Shown: in pieces, positions 47,371 to 56,064 of the stretch | How positions within the stretch are numbered: position 1 is the first letter of the stretch | Layout: each line of letters opens with the position of its first letter | From: Myxococcus sp. RHSTA-1-4 | Lineage (GTDB): Bacteria > Myxococcota > Myxococcia > Myxococcales > Myxococcaceae | Direction of reading: 5' to 3' | DNA: 64,000 nt | Assembly: GCF_020037125.1 (NCBI RefSeq) | Contig: NZ_JAIQDG010000005.1 | Span: 248,001-312,000, forward strand | Made by a program: the position numbers and the translations under genes | The notes under the pieces: model-generated | What the model was told of the DNA's origin: nothing | The model's input: only the letters and a program-made list of their open reading frames with translations | The model's database searches: none

Positions 47371-47474
47371 ACGATTTCACCGAAGGGATTTCCCCGAGCA
47401 CGTTCTCCCCGTGCGCAGGGGGTGCTCCATTGGTGGAACGGCATGAAGTCATGGGAGCAAGGGGCGGCGCGACG

Positions 47475-48023
47475 ATGGAAGAAGGGCTCCACCGCCAGTT
47501 CGATGAGTTCGCGCGCGTACGGCGCCCGGGCCTGTTGAAAATCGCCCGTCGTTTGTGCGCGGGGGGAGGCATCGACCCGGAGGACCTCGTGCAGGAGACG
47601 CTGGAGCGCGCATACCGCCACTTCGACCGGCTGGCCGGAGAGAGCGCGGGGGCGGTGAGCGTGTGGCTGAGCACCACGCTGAGCAACCGCTTCCTGGACC
47701 ACTGCCGGCGGCGGCGCACCGAGGTGCTGGGGGCGCCGGCCCTGCGCGTGGTGCAGGGGGACTCGACGGGAGAGCCGGTACCGCTGGAGCAGTGGGAGCT
47801 CGTAACGAGGGACGCCTTCCTGCGGGCCATCGACCAGCTCCGCCCGCCCCAGGTGCGCGAGGCGTACCGGCTGCACGCCTCGGGGCTGCGCTACCGGGCC
47901 ATTGCCGAGCAGCTCCGCGCGCCCGAGGGGACGGTGGGCCGGTGGCTCTCCGAGGCACGGCAGGCCCTGCGGGAGCTGCTGGCGCCCGGCGAGGCCTCGC
48001 GCGAAGGCAGGGCAGAATCATGA
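47475..48023 (+). CDS. ECF-type RNA polymerase sigma factor
   Basis: 182 residues from ATG 47475; an in-frame ATG at 47451 is an alternative. Region 2 is DPEDLVQETLERAYRHFDRL and region 4 reads YRAIAEQLRAPEGTVGRWLS then EARQALRELL, the helix-turn-helix for the -35 element. Short length and lack of regions 1 and 3 define an ECF sigma factor. Its TGA overlaps the ATG of the CHAT anti-sigma gene (ATGA), so they are coupled and the partner is probably its cognate inhibitor. Confidence 0.93.
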   Translation: MEEGLHRQFDEFARVRRPGLLKIARRLCAGGGIDPEDLVQETLERAYRHFDRLAGESAGAVSVWLSTTLSNRFLDHCRRRRTEVLGAPALRVVQGDSTGEPVPLEQWELVTRDAFLRAIDQLRPPQVREAYRLHASGLRYRAIAEQLRAPEGTVGRWLSEARQALRELLAPGEASREGRAES

Positions 48024-50968
48024 GTGAGCTCTGCGGCAACCTGGAGCGCTTCGTCGACGGCGAGCTGGCACCGGTGGACGCGGAGAACTTCCGCCACCAC
48101 CTCACGCGCTGTGAGCGGTGCGAGGCGCGGATGAAGGAACTGGTCGCGATGGAGCTGCTCGCCGACGACGCGGTAGGCGCCAGCGCCGGGCCGGCCTCCG
48201 ACGTCGTGCGCGGGCCATCCGACTGGCGCCGCAAGACGTGGCTGATGGTGGTGCCCCTGGCGCTGGCCGCCGGCGTCGCAACGCTGGTGCTGATGCCGCG
48301 CACGGACTCTCTGCCCGGCACTCCCGAGGCGTTCCTCGCCCAGGCCTCCACGCGCGGGCTGGAGGCGCGGGTGACGCATCCGGGCGCGGACCGGTACAGG
48401 CCCTACGAGGTGATGCGCAGCGAGGGCGCGGCCACGCAGCCGCTGCCCATGCGCGAGATGGCCCTGATGGAGGAAGCCGGGGACCACCGTGGCGTCGCCG
48501 TGGCCTTCCTGCTGCGCGGGGAGCTGGGACAGGCCTCCGCCCACCTCGACAAGCTGCCCTCCTCGCCGGACGCGGACACGGACCGGGCGGTGCTGGCGCT
48601 CCAGCGGGGCGCTCCGGAGGAGGCCCTGGCCCTGCTGGAGCGTGCGCTGAAGGAGCGGCCCCAGCATCCGCAGGCGCTGTGGAACCGGGGGCTCGCGCTG
48701 CGAGCGCTCGGCCTGTGGCTGAAGGCGGCGGAGTCCTTCGAGCAGGTGGCCGCGCTGAAGGAGCCGGGCTGGAGCCAGGAAGGGGCGGAACGGGCCCGGC
48801 AGCTTCGAGAGAAGGCCGAGCAGGAGCGCAAGGACTGGAATGGCACGAAGCAGGACTGCGACCGCATGGTGGCCGGCGAGGCGCTCCTCTCCGAAGAACA
48901 GGTGGACGCCCGCCCCGGCCTGTCCCGGCTGTGCTTCTACGACGCCCTGCGCGCGGCCAGCTCCGCCGAGCGCGTGGAGACACTGCGCCCCCTGGCCGTG
49001 TGGCTCGACCGGAAGGACGGGGGCACCCACCTGGAGGACGCCGTGCGCCGCGCCGCCCGGCGGGACTTCGCCGCGAGGGCGCCCCTGGCCGCGGACTACG
49101 TCCGGCTCACGCGGGGGGACATGAAGCCCGCGGAGCTGGAGCCCTTCCTCGCGAGGCTGCGCGATGCCCGGCAGGAGGACATCCTCCTGGGGGCGCTGCT
49201 GTTCGTGAAGGACGCGCGGCGGTCCGAGGCGGAGTACCGCGCGCTGGCGATGGACACGAGGGACCCGTGGTTCGCGCTCCTCACGGAGGAGCAGCAGTCC
49301 CAGGCGGACGTGCTGCGCGGACAGACGACGCGGGCGAAGGAGCGGCTGACCACCGCGCTGCGGGCGTGCGGCACCGGCGGTGGCGGTGCGCTGAACTACC
49401 GCTGCCTGGAGCTGCAGCGGCAGCTCGCGCACGTGGAGTCCCTCCTCCACCGCCCCGTGGACGCTCGTGCGCGGGCCCTATCCGCGCTGGAGCGCGCCCG
49501 GAGCGGGAAGGAGTGGGCCAAGGAGCTGCGGCTCATCCAGCACCTGGGACAGATTGCTCGCTCACATGGAGACCTCTCCCTGGCGCGCGCGTACATGGAG
49601 GACGCCCTGCTGCGCATGCCCGAACCCTGTTCGGACCCGAACCTGACCGAGGCGGCCCATACCAATCTCGCTCTCGCGTTCTACCGCATCCACGACTTCG
49701 CAAGCGCCCGCGAGCAGCTCGACCACGTGGCGCGTTGTGGCCAGCCTCCCTCCCTGCCGCGCGCCTTCGTCCTCGCCGACCTGGCCCACACGCCCTACCG
49801 GCGTGAGGGGGACGCGGAGCTGCTCGCCCGGGGGCTGGAGTCCCTGCGTGCCTCGGGTCCCCCGCAGTCCGGCGTGGGGCCCCTGCTGAGCCACATCGAG
49901 GGACGCTTCGTCATCGAACAGGACCGGCGGCGGGGGCAGGAACTGCTGCGCCAGGCCATCACCGAGGCCCTGCCGCTGCTCGGCTCGGATGGAGACGCCC
50001 GGAAGGCCCGCGCCTACAGCTACACCTCCCTCATCCTGGACGCCACGAAGCATGGCGAGTTGGAGCGCGCGCTGAACCTCTTCGCCGAGGAGCGCGCCCT
50101 GCCGGCGACGGAGAAGTGCACCCTCGGCGTCACCGTGGATGACGAACGCACGGCGGTGGTGGCGCGCGACGCGGGTGGGCGGCTCGTGGGCGGCTTCAGC
50201 ACGGGCCGGAGGGAGCCGCTGTCGACGGTGGAGGGGCTGGTGCCCACGAACATCGTGGACGCGCTACGTGTCTGCCCCAGCGTGGACGTGCTGGCCCGCC
50301 CTCCCGTCCAGGGACAGGCGGGGCTGCTGCCGCCGGAAATCGCCTGGACGTACCGGGTCGGTGCCCCACCCTCCAACCCCGTGGAGCTGCCCACACGGCG
50401 GTTGGTGGTGGCGGATGTCGTCTCGCCCGCGGAGCTTCGCATGCCTACGCTCCGCACCTGGAGCGCGCGTGAGCCGGAGGACGGGGCCTTCACCATGCTG
50501 ACGGGCCCGGCGGCGACGCCGTCACGCGTCTTGGCGGCCATGCGTGATGCGACCGAGGTGCAGATCCACGCCCATGGCATCGTCGACCCGGACGTGGCCG
50601 ACGGCTCCCTGCTGGTGCTCTCGCCCGAGGTCGATGGCGGGCGCTACGCGCTGACGGCGTCAGACCTCCAGGGGCAGCGGCTCCAGGGCCGGCCCGTGGT
50701 GTTGCTCGCGGCCTGCCACGCGGCCTACAGCAAGGAATACTTCCACGAGACCTTCGGCCTGCCCGTCTCCTTCATCGAGGCGGGCGCGAGAGCCGTCCTC
50801 GCCGCCACGCGGGAGATTCCCGACGCGGAGGTGTCGGAGTTCTTCGAGCCGGTACTCGCGCGCATCCGCGAGGGAGCGCCCGCCGCCATCGTGCTCCGGG
50901 ACGCCCGCCAGGATTGGCTGCGCGGCCGCCCCGGCTCCTGGGTGCTGCAGGTCCTCCTTTTCGAGTAG
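48020..50968 (+). CDS. Zinc-finger anti-sigma factor fused to TPRs and a CHAT protease domain
   Basis: 982 residues. The N-terminus is an anti-sigma zinc-finger (ZAS/zf-HC2): Cys5, then HHLTRCERC with His27, Cys31 and Cys34. One transmembrane segment follows (TWLMVVPLALAAGVATLVLM, residues 73-92). A long helical region, about 100-640, contains TPR-like repeats (LALLERALKERPQHPQALWN then RGLALRALG). The C-terminal CHAT domain (caspase-HetF-associated) starts about 690 and has the dyad His852 in IHAHGIVD and Cys899 in LLAACHAAY. CHAT enzymes are caspase-like peptidases. The anti-sigma part would be cytoplasmic and the CHAT part on the other side of the membrane unless the topology differs. It likely restrains the upstream sigma factor. 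Confidence 0.9.
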   Translation: MSELCGNLERFVDGELAPVDAENFRHHLTRCERCEARMKELVAMELLADDAVGASAGPASDVVRGPSDWRRKTWLMVVPLALAAGVATLVLMPRTDSLPGTPEAFLAQASTRGLEARVTHPGADRYRPYEVMRSEGAATQPLPMREMALMEEAGDHRGVAVAFLLRGELGQASAHLDKLPSSPDADTDRAVLALQRGAPEEALALLERALKERPQHPQALWNRGLALRALGLWLKAAESFEQVAALKEPGWSQEGAERARQLREKAEQERKDWNGTKQDCDRMVAGEALLSEEQVDARPGLSRLCFYDALRAASSAERVETLRPLAVWLDRKDGGTHLEDAVRRAARRDFAARAPLAADYVRLTRGDMKPAELEPFLARLRDARQEDILLGALLFVKDARRSEAEYRALAMDTRDPWFALLTEEQQSQADVLRGQTTRAKERLTTALRACGTGGGGALNYRCLELQRQLAHVESLLHRPVDARARALSALERARSGKEWAKELRLIQHLGQIARSHGDLSLARAYMEDALLRMPEPCSDPNLTEAAHTNLALAFYRIHDFASAREQLDHVARCGQPPSLPRAFVLADLAHTPYRREGDAELLARGLESLRASGPPQSGVGPLLSHIEGRFVIEQDRRRGQELLRQAITEALPLLGSDGDARKARAYSYTSLILDATKHGELERALNLFAEERALPATEKCTLGVTVDDERTAVVARDAGGRLVGGFSTGRREPLSTVEGLVPTNIVDALRVCPSVDVLARPPVQGQAGLLPPEIAWTYRVGAPPSNPVELPTRRLVVADVVSPAELRMPTLRTWSAREPEDGAFTMLTGPAATPSRVLAAMRDATEVQIHAHGIVDPDVADGSLLVLSPEVDGGRYALTASDLQGQRLQGRPVVLLAACHAAYSKEYFHETFGLPVSFIEAGARAVLAATREIPDAEVSEFFEPVLARIREGAPAAIVLRDARQDWLRGRPGSWVLQVLLFE

Positions 50969-51004
50969 TCGTTTCTGTTTCTCCCCAACCCCGAGTTCGA
51001 CACC

Positions 51005-51550
51005 ATGAAGAATCGCCTCCTGCTCCTCCCCGCGCTGCTGGCCCTCTCGGCGTGCCGCCACATACCTACTCGCGAACCCATGCCCTCCCTGGAGGAAATA
51101 CGGCGGGAGGCCCCTCCGGGCGGACTCGTCCGGGTCACTCTCCGCGACAAGCACCAACCCCTTCGCGCCAGCAGCTACCTGGTGGATGTGCGCCAGGACA
51201 AGATTGTCGCCCGGCTCGACAGCCCGACGGCCCAGCAACTGGAAGCCCAGGACGCGCCCATGAAGACCGGGTCGCAGGACTCGGGGACGTTCGTTATCGC
51301 CACGCTCGAGATGTCCACTGAGTGCAAGCCGGCCGAGGAGACTGAGGACCAGACGGGCTGCCCCCCCGACCCGGGCGCGTGGAATGGCGACCCGATTGGA
51401 GGCACGGGCGGTGGCGGAGACCCCACGGGTGGCGACCCGTTCCGGCCCGTCCTCAACCTGGCGGCGCGGACCTTCTGGTCCATCAGCCAGAGCGGACTGC
51501 CCTACCAGATGAAGCCCGTGCAGGTCAGGGTTCCGACGCAGGCCAGGTAG
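51005..51550 (+). CDS. Lipoprotein of the sigma/CHAT operon
   Basis: 181 residues. Signal with lipobox LSAC. A region near residues 38-65 (GLVRVTLRDKHQPLRASSYL) and another rich in glycine (GDPIGGTGGGGDPTGGD) are followed by a hydrophobic stretch. No family recognised. The gap after the CHAT gene is 36 bases, so it probably belongs to the same operon and could be a sensor or a target of the CHAT protease at the envelope. Confidence 0.75.
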   Translation: MKNRLLLLPALLALSACRHIPTREPMPSLEEIRREAPPGGLVRVTLRDKHQPLRASSYLVDVRQDKIVARLDSPTAQQLEAQDAPMKTGSQDSGTFVIATLEMSTECKPAEETEDQTGCPPDPGAWNGDPIGGTGGGGDPTGGDPFRPVLNLAARTFWSISQSGLPYQMKPVQVRVPTQAR

Positions 51551-51560
51551 AAGCCCTCGG

Positions 51561-54500
51561 CTACTCCCTTCCGCCCTCCGCAGTGGGGGCGGAAGGGGCG
51601 AGCCCGGCCAGTGTCTCCACGTAGGTGGCGGCCACGCGCAGGAAGCGGGCGCCCCGGACGCCAGAGAGGTACTGCCGCTTCATGGCGCGCGTGGAGCCCA
51701 CGTAGAACATGGCCCGGCGGATGCGCTCGTTCTCCCGGGCGTTGCGCTCGCGGGCTCCGGCCATCCAGTTCTCCACCGTGTCCAGCGCGTCCAGGCCGGC
51801 GAAGAAGACGATGGGGCACTCGTGCCCCTTGCAGGAGAACACCGTGGTGGCGCGCACGTGGTCCACGCCGCTGACGCGGAAGTCCGCCACGTCCCGGCCG
51901 CCCTTGCCGCCATAGGCCTCCGCGGGCACGCCGGCGCGGGCGAGCGCCTCCGTGTATTGCGAGGGCATGACGGGGGCCACCACCAGGATGTCTCCGGGGT
52001 GGACGCCCTCCTCGCGGATGAGGCGGGCAATCTCCTTCGCCACCTGCCGCGCCTCGCTGGCGCTGGAGGCGAAGCCGCGCACCTGGGGCAGCACGCCGCC
52101 GCGCTCGGTGGACTGGACGCGGAAGAGTCCCTCCAGCGTCTCCTCCGGGAGCCAGAGGAGCCCCTCGCGGGCCAGCTCGCCCACCTTCATGTACTCGCGC
52201 ATGCCGGGCTCGCTCACCTGATGCTGGCGCAGCGGGTCCAGCACCACGTTGAAGGCCACGTCGAGGATGTCGCGGGTGGCGCGGAACGTCTCCTTGAGGA
52301 CGCGGGTGCGGCCCCGGAAGGACAGCCCCTCCGGGAGCTGCTCCTTCAGCGCGTCGATGGGAATCTGCCCATAGACGTTCTGCGAGTCGTCCATGAACAA
52401 CTGGAAGCAGCGCACCTGCCGGCCGTCCGGCAGCGTGTGCGGGCGCACCAGCCCGTGGAGGGTGGCCAGCGCCTTCGCGTTCATGTCCTGCGCCTCGTCC
52501 ACGAAGACGGCGTCGAAGCTCCCGGGCTCCGGGGCCCGCAGCGCGCCCACGTGCCGCACCGTCACCCGGGAGCGCAGCTCGCGCGCCCGCTCCCGGCCCG
52601 CGCGCTGGACGAGCGCCTCCGTGAGCAGCTTCTGCACCAGCGGCGCCAGCGCCCGGTTGAAGAAGGAGACCAGCACCTGCGTCTCCTCGTGCTCCAGCAG
52701 GTAGCGCGCCACCCAGTGCGCCAGCACGTACGTCTTGCCGCTGCCCGCCACGCCGCGCACCAGGTGGTGGCCGTCGTCGAAGCGCCGCTCGAAGAGGGAC
52801 ACCTGCTCATGCGTGAAGAGGGGCCGGGCCGGACGCGAGCCCTCGATTTCGCCGCCCAGGCTGGCCGGCACCGCGGGCGGCGGCGGTGGAGGCGGCGGCG
52901 GGCGCTGCGGCAGGGGCAGCGGCTCCAGGCGCAGGGGCTCGGCGTCGAGGACGCGCAGGCGGGGCAGCAACGCGAGGAAGCGCTGGGGAATGGTGGCGGC
53001 GCGGGCCTCGTCGCGCGAGGCGAGCACCAGCAGGTAGTCCCGCGCGCGGCTGGCGGCCACGTTGAGCATGGGCACCAGCGTGTGCGGCGGGAAGGGCCGG
53101 CCCCCGGCCACGGTGTCCACCAGCACCACGTCATATTGGGTGCCCTGCTGGCGGTGGATGGTGGATGCGCTGAAGACATTCCCGCGCAGGCCGGCGGCGT
53201 TGCCCAGCCGGCGCACCAGCGCGGCCTGGGCGCGGTACGGCGTGACACACAGGACGCTGAGCCCCGAGCGCACCGCCTCCTTCGCCAGGGACACGGCCAG
53301 GTTGGCGGACAGCTCGCGCTGATAGCCGGAGCCCGTCTCGCCCCGCCCGTGGGTGAGCTGGCGCGCGTCGCGGGAGAGGCTGTCCAGCACCACCCAGCCG
53401 GCGCGCGTGGCGGCGAAGGCGGCCACCGGGGCGGGCCTCTCCGCGCGGGCCTTGACGATGTCGCCGTCCTCCAGCGCGCCGCCGTAGCAGAAGTGGCTCA
53501 CCACCCGGGCGATGTCCGGGTGCATGCGGTGCTGGGTGCGCAAGAGCAGCACGTCCGGCCGCGCCGCGTCCTTCACCGCGTCCTCCAGGTGCGACAGGGC
53601 GCTGGCGCGCAGCCACTTCTGCGTCTCCTTCCCGGAGCCCTCGGCGGCGCGGCTCACCGGGCCAATCTGCTTCGGGTCTCCGGCGAGCGTCACCCGCTCC
53701 GCCAGGGGCCCCAGCAGCGCGGTGGCGGCGCGAGTCACCATGCCGGCCTCGTCCACCACCAGCCTCGCGAAGGTCTGCTTCCCCTCCAGCTCCGACACCA
53801 GCCGCAGGGCGCGGTGCACGGTGAGCACCATCAGCGGGCAGTCGCCCTTCTCCGCCTCCTTCAGCGTGGGGTCCTTCACCTTGCCGCGCAGGCCACGCAG
53901 CTCCGCCTGGAGCTTCGCCAGCTCGTGCGCGGGGCCGCCCCGCACGCGCTGCAGCATCAGCTCGCGCTCGCGCTCCTCGATGCTCGCCCGGAGCTTGCCG
54001 CCCTTCTGGCTGTCCTCGACGACGACGGTGGGCAGCTTCGCCAGCGACTCGCTCGCTCCGGTGCCGCCACGGAAGATGCAGCGCGGCGAGCGCAGGGGGA
54101 TGGGCTCCCGCTCCAGCAGCGCGCTGACGCGCATCACCAGCTCATCCGCGGCGCGGTTGGTGGGGGCCACCGCGAGGATGCGCTCCCCGGGGAACGCGCG
54201 CAGCGAGCGGGCGATGAGGTCCGCGACGGCCGTCGTCTTGCCCGTGCCCGGCGGGCCCCAGATACAGCCCCAGGGCTGGCTCCACAGCCGGTCCGCCGGC
54301 AGCCGCTCCGCCTCCTTCGCGGTGAGCTCCGGCGCGGGCTGCTCGCCGCACGCGCGGCGCAGCGACTGCGTGAGCGCGGGCTGCCGCTCCTCGTACGCAG
54401 AGGCGGCCTTGCACAGCGCCTCCGCGAAGTCATAGGGGCGGTAGGCCCAGCGCTCCGCGGACAGCGCGCGGCGGTCCACGTCGTCGCCATGGTTCGGCGC

Positions 54501-55133
54501 GGCGAAGACGCGGCCGGACTCGAAGTCCAGGTGGACGATGTCGCCGCCGAAGACACACTCCTCGCCCTGGAAGCCGAGCAGCGAGCCTCCCGACCAGTCC
54601 GGGTCCGCCGCCGGCCGGGGGATGAGGGACAGCACGCCGGGTGACTGGAGGCCCACCTCGCGCACATCCTGCAGCCGCTGCGCGCGGTACTGGCTGCGCT
54701 CGGCCAGGAGCGCCTCACGCAGGTCCTCCGGGAGGTACGCGGGAGGTGTCCACGCCTCGCGGCGCTTTCCAGCGGACACCGCGGCCTGCATGGCCTCGCG
54801 CTCGGCCTGGGTGGCCTCCGCGGGCGCGGCGAGGTCCACCGAGGGCACGCCGTCCGGGTCCGCCTCCCGAGCCCGCGCGGCCTTCTTCAACCGGGCGAGC
54901 GCCAGCATCGGGTTGGGCGAGCGAGGAGTGTCCGCGGACAAAGCGGGCTGACGCGCCGGTGCCCCGCCCTGCCCTCTCGCCTCCGCGAGCCTGTTGCGAG
55001 GAGCGGCCCCGGGACGCACGGCCCCTCCGTCCGCGGGCGCATCGTCGTACTCGACGTGCAGCTCGCGGCCGGAGTCCCCCGCCGACGGCGCTTCGCGCTC
55101 CTCGGCGGCTTCGTCGTGGGTCCGGTGAATCAT
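51561..55133 (-). CDS. Fusion of Upf1-like and UvrD-like SF1 helicases
   Basis: 1190 residues from ATG 55133 (the start is uncertain; no strong ribosome-binding site). First helicase: Walker A GPPGTGKTT (about residue 292), LVVDEAGMVTRAATALL, QHRMHPDIARVV, and NVAASRARDYLLVLA, which is the Upf1/DNA2 (SF1B) type. A proline-rich linker follows (QRPPPPPPPPP). Second helicase: Walker A GVAGSGKTY (about residue 793), VFVDEAQDMNAKALATLHGL, KETFRATRDILDV, FSCKGHECPIVFF and FYVGSTRAMKRQ, the UvrD (SF1A) type. Both ATPases look complete. Tandem SF1B-SF1A polypeptides are unusual. It is convergent with the sigma/CHAT operon (gap about 10 bases) and divergent from the EcsC gene. Confidence 0.88.
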   Translation of the reverse strand: MIHRTHDEAAEEREAPSAGDSGRELHVEYDDAPADGGAVRPGAAPRNRLAEARGQGGAPARQPALSADTPRSPNPMLALARLKKAARAREADPDGVPSVDLAAPAEATQAEREAMQAAVSAGKRREAWTPPAYLPEDLREALLAERSQYRAQRLQDVREVGLQSPGVLSLIPRPAADPDWSGGSLLGFQGEECVFGGDIVHLDFESGRVFAAPNHGDDVDRRALSAERWAYRPYDFAEALCKAASAYEERQPALTQSLRRACGEQPAPELTAKEAERLPADRLWSQPWGCIWGPPGTGKTTAVADLIARSLRAFPGERILAVAPTNRAADELVMRVSALLEREPIPLRSPRCIFRGGTGASESLAKLPTVVVEDSQKGGKLRASIEERERELMLQRVRGGPAHELAKLQAELRGLRGKVKDPTLKEAEKGDCPLMVLTVHRALRLVSELEGKQTFARLVVDEAGMVTRAATALLGPLAERVTLAGDPKQIGPVSRAAEGSGKETQKWLRASALSHLEDAVKDAARPDVLLLRTQHRMHPDIARVVSHFCYGGALEDGDIVKARAERPAPVAAFAATRAGWVVLDSLSRDARQLTHGRGETGSGYQRELSANLAVSLAKEAVRSGLSVLCVTPYRAQAALVRRLGNAAGLRGNVFSASTIHRQQGTQYDVVLVDTVAGGRPFPPHTLVPMLNVAASRARDYLLVLASRDEARAATIPQRFLALLPRLRVLDAEPLRLEPLPLPQRPPPPPPPPPAVPASLGGEIEGSRPARPLFTHEQVSLFERRFDDGHHLVRGVAGSGKTYVLAHWVARYLLEHEETQVLVSFFNRALAPLVQKLLTEALVQRAGRERARELRSRVTVRHVGALRAPEPGSFDAVFVDEAQDMNAKALATLHGLVRPHTLPDGRQVRCFQLFMDDSQNVYGQIPIDALKEQLPEGLSFRGRTRVLKETFRATRDILDVAFNVVLDPLRQHQVSEPGMREYMKVGELAREGLLWLPEETLEGLFRVQSTERGGVLPQVRGFASSASEARQVAKEIARLIREEGVHPGDILVVAPVMPSQYTEALARAGVPAEAYGGKGGRDVADFRVSGVDHVRATTVFSCKGHECPIVFFAGLDALDTVENWMAGARERNARENERIRRAMFYVGSTRAMKRQYLSGVRGARFLRVAATYVETLAGLAPSAPTAEGGRE

Positions 55134-55338
55134 CGGGGAAGGCGTCGGTTCCCCCGGCCCTCCTCCGGGCACAGGGGGCGCGAAGGTAGGGGAGGCCTGG
55201 ATCCGCGTCAATGCGCCCGGCCCCATGGCACACCGGGTGCACACGGCGCGTGACTTGACAGCCGCGACAGCCCTCCGCGAGCGTCGTGACCGAGACCGGG
55301 TGTGAAGCCCGGCCCGCCATGCCCACAGGGGGGCCACC

Positions 55339-56064
55339 ATGAAGGAAGTCGAGGACCAGGAGCAGGGACGCAAGCTCCTGACAGCCGTCGAGCGCATTCT
55401 CGCGGACACCGACAGCCTCGTCGCGCTGTCGAAGCAGGAGCTGGGCAAGGCCCGGGAGAAGAAGCTGCCCAGCGAGGATGCCGTGCGCGACGCCGCGGCG
55501 CTCGAGGTGGTGCGGCACTTCTCCAACCGCTCCGCCATCTCCGGAGGGCTGGCGGCGCTTCCCGGCCTGGTCCCGGGCGCGGGCACCGTGGTGGCCGCGC
55601 TGGGCGGGACGCTCGCGGACATGTGCATGATGCTCAAGTTCGAGGTGGAGATGGCCCTGGTCCTCAGCCACCTCTACGGCTACGACATCACCCGCGACGA
55701 GGAGCGGCAGCTCGCGTTCCTCCTCGCCTCGGTGAGCACCTACGACGCGAAGCGCGAGCGCAACACGGTGATGGACCTCGCGGAGACGCAGGGCATCGCC
55801 TTCTGGAAGTACGCGCCGCGCGAGGCGTCGAAGATGCTGGTGAGCGTGATGACGAAGATTGCGCTCCTGTCCGTGTCCAAGGGCCTGCTGCGCGCGCTGC
55901 CGCTGGTGGGCATCGCCGTGGGCTCGTCCATGAACAAGGTGCTCACCAACCGCGTGGGGGAGCGCTGCATGCGCGAGCTGAAGAAGCGCCGCGAGCTGTC
56001 CCCTCCCGAGAGCGCCGAAACCTCCGACTCCGTGGTGGATGCCCATGTCCGCAAGTCCGGCTGA
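55339..56064 (+). CDS. EcsC-family protein
   Basis: 241 residues. The EcsC core (SGGLAALPGLVPGAGTVVAA, LADMCMMLKFEVEMALVLSH, YGYDI) with hydrophobic segments is clear, and the C-terminal half contains another (LLRALPLVGIAVGSSMNKVL). EcsC-like proteins are associated with membrane-bound proteases in other bacteria. The gene overlaps the M48 peptidase gene by 26 bases, which supports a joint role. Confidence 0.85.
   Translation: MKEVEDQEQGRKLLTAVERILADTDSLVALSKQELGKAREKKLPSEDAVRDAAALEVVRHFSNRSAISGGLAALPGLVPGAGTVVAALGGTLADMCMMLKFEVEMALVLSHLYGYDITRDEERQLAFLLASVSTYDAKRERNTVMDLAETQGIAFWKYAPREASKMLVSVMTKIALLSVSKGLLRALPLVGIAVGSSMNKVLTNRVGERCMRELKKRRELSPPESAETSDSVVDAHVRKSG

Follow-up and report, generated by a model that had tools for sequence, protein, structure and literature searches.

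The 982-residue protein P0001, encoded in a stretch of 64,000 nucleotides from Myxococcus sp. RHSTA-1-4 (contig NZ_JAIQDG010000005.1, positions 248,001 to 312,000; hereafter the window), is, by sequence and predicted structure, a paralogue of DdvA of Myxococcus xanthus and a DdvA-type transmembrane anti-sigma factor with an ectodomain of tetratricopeptide repeats (TPR) and a CHAT domain. Its gene stands in one row with an extracytoplasmic function (ECF) sigma factor gene and a lipoprotein gene, all on the + strand. The locus is real and conserved and belongs to the DdvA kind; it brings a likely new partner, the lipoprotein, and has natural split and exchanged versions. Its features are the following:

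47381-47404, + strand: candidate autoregulatory ECF promoter, CGAAGRGA-N12-CGTT, with fixed spacing in 26/26 orthologous upstream regions
47433-48023, + strand: ECF sigma factor gene (Pfam Sigma70_r2 and r4_2; start from a 26-way alignment)
48020-50968, + strand: P0001, transmembrane TPR-CHAT anti-sigma factor of 982 aa (Pfam, AlphaFold2 model, fold match)
48041-48121, + strand: zinc anti-sigma domain zf-HC2, residues 8-34, predicted cytoplasmic (Pfam above the curated cut-off; matches the DdvA domain chain 8rlz_A)
48236-48295, + strand: transmembrane segment, residues ~73-92 (hydropathy 2.27; the sole strong hydrophobic segment)
48449-50092, + strand: TPR-like helical array, residues ~144-691, predicted periplasmic (Pfam TPRs, model helices)
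48788-48790, + strand: putative exchange boundary, near residue 257 (trees, approximately unbiased (AU) tests, change-point shuffles)
50492-50926, + strand: CHAT domain, residues 825-969 (Pfam 59.9 bits, cut-off 24; fold match)
50573-50575, + strand: predicted catalytic His852 codon (H in 92/92 near-complete members)
50714-50716, + strand: predicted catalytic Cys899 codon (C in 92/92 near-complete members)
51005-51550, + strand: lipoprotein gene (lipobox LSAC; 36 bases past the P0001 stop)
51561-55637, opposite strand: flanking gene downstream, helicase-like by reading of the sequence alone

The phmmer match of P0001 to DdvA (8rot_B) covers residues 3-982 (E 4e-128). The AlphaFold2 model, built on a 51-row alignment (predicted local distance difference test 88.4, predicted template modelling score 0.83), matched 8rot_A, titled "transmembrane anti-sigma factor DdvA", with Z 46.5 over 865 residues (3.6 Å, 36% identity), and 8rw5, titled "dimeric transmembrane anti-sigma factor DdvA", with Z 45.7. 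Since P0001 is a paralogue of a structurally solved protein (8ROT/8RW5), its architecture is already known. The identification of the locus as ddvA itself was rejected: P0001 falls in a starred clade of 14 rows and DdvA in another, and genome G007 holds both at different places, the P0001 orthologue at G007:C5:456162-459086.

An anti-sigma zinc finger, one transmembrane segment, TPRs and a CHAT domain in a single protein had been proposed in an earlier sequence-only reading, and Pfam and hydropathy agree with it. P0001 is predicted to have the DdvA-type layout, with the zinc anti-sigma domain, one transmembrane helix and the C-terminal part outside. The likely zinc ligands are H27, C31 and C34, plus C5. 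Three Pfam TPR models scored above their curated cut-offs and the other TPR models below theirs. His852 and Cys899, at the positions given by that reading, come directly after strands 846-850 and 893-897 in the AlphaFold2 model, and the modelled fold is that of a CHAT peptidase (clan CD), caspase-like, its His and Cys each directly following one of two adjacent strands. The structure search also returned the Craspase TPR-CHAT (Z 19.8), separase (17.2), gingipain RgpB (16.8) and SAVED-CHAT (16.1). Unrelated TPR proteins, for example LGN, also score as high as Z 17.5 in this search, so a whole-protein Z of about 17 to separase is not telling by itself; the CHAT-centred matches are, namely 7y9x_B (model residues 671-982), 5fc2_B (679-982) and 4ief_D (683-982), and matches of this sort include separase and gingipain.

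The sequence-only reading would have been given up if the CHAT active-site residues varied among homologues. H852, G853 and C899 are invariant in all 92 near-complete family members (95/95 counting three fragments) and in 51/51 rows of a second, overlapping set, while fewer than one-fifth of the CHAT positions keep the residue of the window in at least 97% of members (n = 92).

The sigma stop and the P0001 start share ATGA at 48020-48023, and this overlap, like the lipoprotein gene 36 bases downstream, is as first described. The gene order recurs in other genomes, as that reading had suggested checking. The sigma gene lies directly 5' of the P0001 orthologue in 25/25 same-genus orthologues, and an open reading frame (ORF) with a lipobox, found by ORF search, lies 0-36 bases 3' of it in 26/26 cases including the window, so the arrangement is not due to chance. 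The sigma start had been placed at ATG 47475, and this part has to be corrected. The gene probably starts at GTG 47433 and gives a product of 196 aa, because in the alignment the GTG (in GTGGA) is kept in 26/26 orthologous upstream regions and the ATG is absent from 8/26; a purine-rich stretch before the GTG resembles, by eye, a ribosome site. The promoter-like element upstream was derived from the same 26 regions in which it was counted, and 0.02 matches to it are expected in the window. Its conservation suggests autoregulation of the operon.

Among the orthologues, two allele types of ectodomain and lipoprotein occur. Seven genomes (the window's, G002, G010, G012, G020, G022 and G026) group together by the flanking gene (support 100) and also by sigma with residues 1-260 (support 97). 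In the trees of the ectodomain (residues 261-982) and of the lipoprotein, on the other hand, G002, G012, G020 and G026 join the type of G007 and its kin, with support 100 each. The AU test rejected the seven-genome group for the ectodomain (2e-6) and the lipoprotein (7e-9), while the tests on the flanking gene (1e-4) and on sigma with the N-terminus (3e-41) rejected grouping by alleles. Identity between the window and its nearest genome, G012, is 94% in the flanking gene, 91% in sigma, 84% in the N-terminus, 60% in the ectodomain and 38% in the lipoprotein. Along the protein, G012 compared with G010 changes at residue 257, and 0/5000 shuffles gave as strong a change point. Ectodomain and lipoprotein seem, from these sequences, to have been exchanged together as a unit. 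The lipoprotein is likely the sensing partner of the ectodomain, since its alleles follow the ectodomain and depart from the tree shared by sigma, N-terminus and flanking gene; this co-inheritance is the strongest sign that the two function together.

With the lipoprotein of the window as query, tblastn found 24/25 orthologues and missed the one in L032. A lipobox ORF also follows 7/7 tested members of one clade that lacks the zinc domain, and none follows the 4 other tested paralogues. Behind a further TPR-CHAT gene without a zinc domain there is a lipoprotein gene (L213:10513-11151) with a similar DPK...PI stretch, a resemblance seen by eye. In Pyxidicoccus fallax (L027/L111), divergence from the versions in the window is far greater for the ectodomain and lipoprotein than for sigma, N-terminus and flanking gene, which would fit an exchange.

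P0001 belongs to a family with several copies per genome. A search of its own genome, of 11.2 Mb and with 15 CHAT matches, found 9 places, and the 26 other genomes of the genus hold from at least 4 to at least 13 matches each. Copy numbers are lower bounds, with up to 13 candidates scored per genome in the same-genus search and up to 5 in the class-wide one. An orthologue at 61-79% identity is present in 25/26 of these genomes; the exception is G019, with a best match of 44%. In the class, 67/147 genomes have a match at E ≤1e-15, and all but G056 belong to the same family. A contig scan with the protein alone gave nothing, and the alignment query retained 79 loci from 127 relatives, whose record titles include Myxococcus, Pyxidicoccus, Corallococcus, Hyalangium, Archangium and Citreicoccus. 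The 92 near-complete members are what remains of 95 after the fragments L045_0, L046_0 and L047_1 were dropped, the last being part of a gene counted elsewhere. In the family tree, which carries long-branch warnings for DdvA and others, 23/93 rows were omitted as near copies or for speed. Row L166 was dropped separately for internal stops. A record titled Comamonas sp. KCTC 72670 (L130) carries this myxobacterial operon with its flank and is probably a mislabelled assembly.

The zinc domain is present in 63/92 near-complete members and absent in 29/92. A sigma gene lies just upstream in 63/63 of those with the domain (62 by tblastn; L102 by reading the translation), and the two genes overlap as ATGA in 49 and as GTGA in 4. 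Near the 29 without it, an upstream sigma gene was detected in 0/29 by tblastn with the sigma of the window at E 1e-3. Twenty-two of these 29 were placed in the tree, where they form three clades. In one, a sigma gene lies downstream in the fetched stretch in 9/10 tree members (tblastn), and the tenth, L014, has it in the neighbouring locus L016. Where the region was read (L016; L208, 468 aa), sigma precedes a zinc-domain protein with TPRs that lacks CHAT. By-hand comparison of positions placed an open frame of 487-640 aa, matching the N-terminal part of DdvA, no more than ~6 kb from such a TPR-CHAT gene in 11/12 genomes, not in G033. Protease and anti-sigma factor can therefore be separate genes.

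In the one case searched with Pfam (L210), a Cupin_8/JmjC-like gene lies between the TPR-CHAT and anti-sigma genes; such genes, at L210:6864-7871 and L214:11689-12738, stand beside two TPR-CHAT genes without an anti-sigma domain. Paralogues with the zinc domain and TPRs and no CHAT, each behind a sigma gene, were seen in L016, L017 and L208:4976-6382; the open frame of L017 stops ~290 residues past the start of the zinc domain.

The TPR and CHAT parts are predicted to be periplasmic and the anti-sigma domain cytoplasmic, because of hydropathy, charge bias and co-varying cysteine pairs. Lysine and arginine are in excess on the N side of the transmembrane segment in 57/63 zinc-domain members (equal in 6, reversed in 0), and no ectodomain segment reaches a hydropathy of 1.8 in any of the 92 members. 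Cysteines 280 and 305 are both present in 26/92 and both absent in 66/92; cysteines 537 and 573 are both present in 82/92 and both absent in 10/92. Cysteines 700 and 752 occur in 92/92, cysteine 450 in 91 and cysteine 462 in 92. This paired presence and absence is as expected for periplasmic disulfides. With CHAT and the anti-sigma domain predicted to lie on opposite sides of the membrane, a direct cut of the cytoplasmic domain by CHAT is unlikely, and a periplasmic first cut ahead of intramembrane proteolysis is possible.

We propose, with belief and doubt about evenly balanced, a DdvA-type switch in which a periplasmic cut by CHAT is followed by an RseP-type cut that frees the sigma factor. 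By homology, the N-terminal zinc domain would tether its cognate ECF sigma factor to the inner membrane; beyond the single transmembrane helix would come the TPR-CHAT ectodomain in the periplasm, which, like DdvA, is probably a dimer. The ectodomain and the lipoprotein, judging from their co-inheritance, may sense an envelope signal. Once triggered, the His852-Cys899 dyad would cut in the periplasm, where the likeliest site is the juxtamembrane linker of the other subunit. Sigma would then be released by an RseP-type site-2 protease together with cytoplasmic proteases, and would drive its own operon from the conserved promoter. A study of DdvA published in Sci Adv in 2024 reportedly describes a transmembrane dimer and possible trans autoproteolysis before RseP, and the proposed mechanism is partly modelled on it. 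In a bolder, rather improbable version, the switch would have three parts, the lipoprotein holding or triggering TPR-CHAT like securin on separase and CHAT acting as the site-1 protease of the system, built into the protein and cutting the other subunit of the dimer. In cells of this genus several such switches would run in parallel, the ectodomain-lipoprotein cassette would be exchanged between lineages, and some systems would be split and act in trans.

The sequence-only reading had proposed a sigma-release switch in which CHAT could cut the anti-sigma part or a partner. Part of this holds, as the sigma/anti-sigma pair and TPR-CHAT are coupled in one polypeptide, with a Craspase-like fold and the dyad conserved in 92/92 members. 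The direct cut is very unlikely, and CHAT would at most cut in the periplasm and so set off intramembrane proteolysis. Taken literally, as CHAT cutting the anti-sigma domain within one polypeptide, the mechanism has a precedent in the TPR-CHAT of Craspase, which cleaves the sigma inhibitor Csx30 (PMC10028731), and the TPR-CHAT folds match; nevertheless, the predicted location of the two domains on opposite membrane sides, from the positive-inside bias and the co-varying cysteine pairs, makes it highly improbable. It is possible, but doubtful, that CHAT is active and cuts another periplasmic protein, either the lipoprotein or a foreign one. An ordinary site-1 protease would then remove the anti-sigma factor, and the fusion would only let sigma set the amount of protease. 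The 29/92 members with TPR-CHAT and no anti-sigma domain, 22 of them in the three clades, fit this, as the ectodomain there works without being an anti-sigma factor; 26/29 have an N-terminal segment with hydropathy of at least 1.6, and L014, alone in its clade, has a lipobox-like cysteine at the N-terminus. However, one of these clades is still near sigma (9/10, and L014 via L016), which where read precedes an anti-sigma gene with TPRs and no CHAT, and protease and anti-sigma factor are thus kept together. An unlikely reading is that of CHAT as a non-proteolytic sensing scaffold, in which binding of a ligand or of the lipoprotein alters the dimer so that host proteases can reach the linker. 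The ectodomain can indeed vary widely among orthologues, in the manner of sensors, with 41-70% identity across blocks of residues 261-824 of L027, but the invariance of His852 and Cys899 in a domain where so few positions are held argues against this reading.

Several points also weigh against the proposed DdvA-type switch. The His-Cys dyad could be retained for structural reasons, and since the family members are related, the counts of cysteines and other features are not independent events. In two related clades the TPR-CHAT proteins lack an anti-sigma domain and no sigma gene was detected nearby, so releasing sigma need not be the task of CHAT in them; the search may also have overlooked a divergent sigma close to the 29 members, as tblastn did with the divergent sigma of L102. 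In these 29 the charge bias is weak (14 as expected, 12 equal, 3 reversed), which makes their topology less sure. M50-type protease candidates are present in the genome, but their presence proves nothing, because M50 proteases were found in 14/14 control genomes too. The strict promoter motif yielded no regulon beyond the operon in this genome and in a set of 11 genomes, degenerate sites not being searched: with a further C, it had 1 match in the genome against 2 for a reversed control pattern; without the final C, the 11 genomes held 29 sites, of which 11 belong to this operon, and the control gave 12. As for the exchange, the AU p-values are optimistic, since the alignments had been viewed before allele groups A and B were named; the allele trees are quick ones under a simple model, with a long-branch warning for that of the lipoprotein; and old alleles retained in several lineages would mimic exchange.

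The useful additions to the known DdvA architecture are the link to the lipoprotein and the split systems. The paralogue family offers a genetic handle on a switch of the DdvA kind, through the co-inherited lipoprotein, chimeras with a boundary at ~257 and the split versions. With these, M. xanthus allows direct tests of the sensing partner and of what the CHAT dyad does. Literature searches, judged by title and abstract opening, gave no paper on this locus, and a first report is not claimed. PADLOC gave no match at E 0.01 for the three proteins searched, P0001-P0003, and a recognised defence system is not supported.

The single-pass anti-sigma factors of the RseA/DegS/RseP system and the self-cleaving FecR and RsgI types resemble P0001 in layout, with the sigma-binding domain in the cytoplasm and the sensor outside. 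They have no CHAT domain, and their first cut is made by DegS or by another kind of self-cleavage.

The DdvS/DdvA system (PDB 8ROT, 8RW5, 8RLZ) shares with P0001 the zinc domain, one transmembrane segment, the TPR-CHAT ectodomain, the His and Cys dyad and the fold. Sigma precedes anti-sigma as here, the genes touching by one base (L206). DdvA differs in its 36% identity and its separate clade (with the long-branch warning), and in what follows the gene: a small gene without a lipobox by eye, a C25-like peptidase gene and genes of a cyclic oligonucleotide-based antiphage signalling system (CBASS), whereas P0001 is followed by the lipoprotein. Of 12 genomes searched, 1 held a copy of DdvA (100% over the 399 residues used), with other matches at no more than 44%, against 25/26 for the P0001 orthologue. 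In G007, ddvA adjoins SAVED-CHAT, cyclase and E1-E2 genes, in agreement with the control of an antiphage island by DdvS stated in PMC12288465. The external signal that inactivates DdvA is given as unknown in a 2015 paper (PMC4374960). A Peptidase_C25 (gingipain-like) match follows both ddvA (L206:9770-11191) and a DdvA-like paralogue, L012 (L211:3663-5387), each behind a smaller gene without a Pfam match.

The TPR-CHAT of Craspase (Csx29), a type III-E CRISPR protein in complex with Cas7-11/gRAMP, is like P0001 in its fold, with Z up to 19.8 and 19.2 for the CHAT-centred match over residues 671-982. PMC10028731 links this CHAT protease to an ECF-like sigma factor (CASP-sigma), and its authors favour relief of inhibition after Csx30 cleavage. 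In that same account Craspase is RNA-guided and its protease is separate from the sigma inhibitor, whereas P0001 is membrane-bound, predicted to be periplasmic in its protease part, and fused to its anti-sigma domain.

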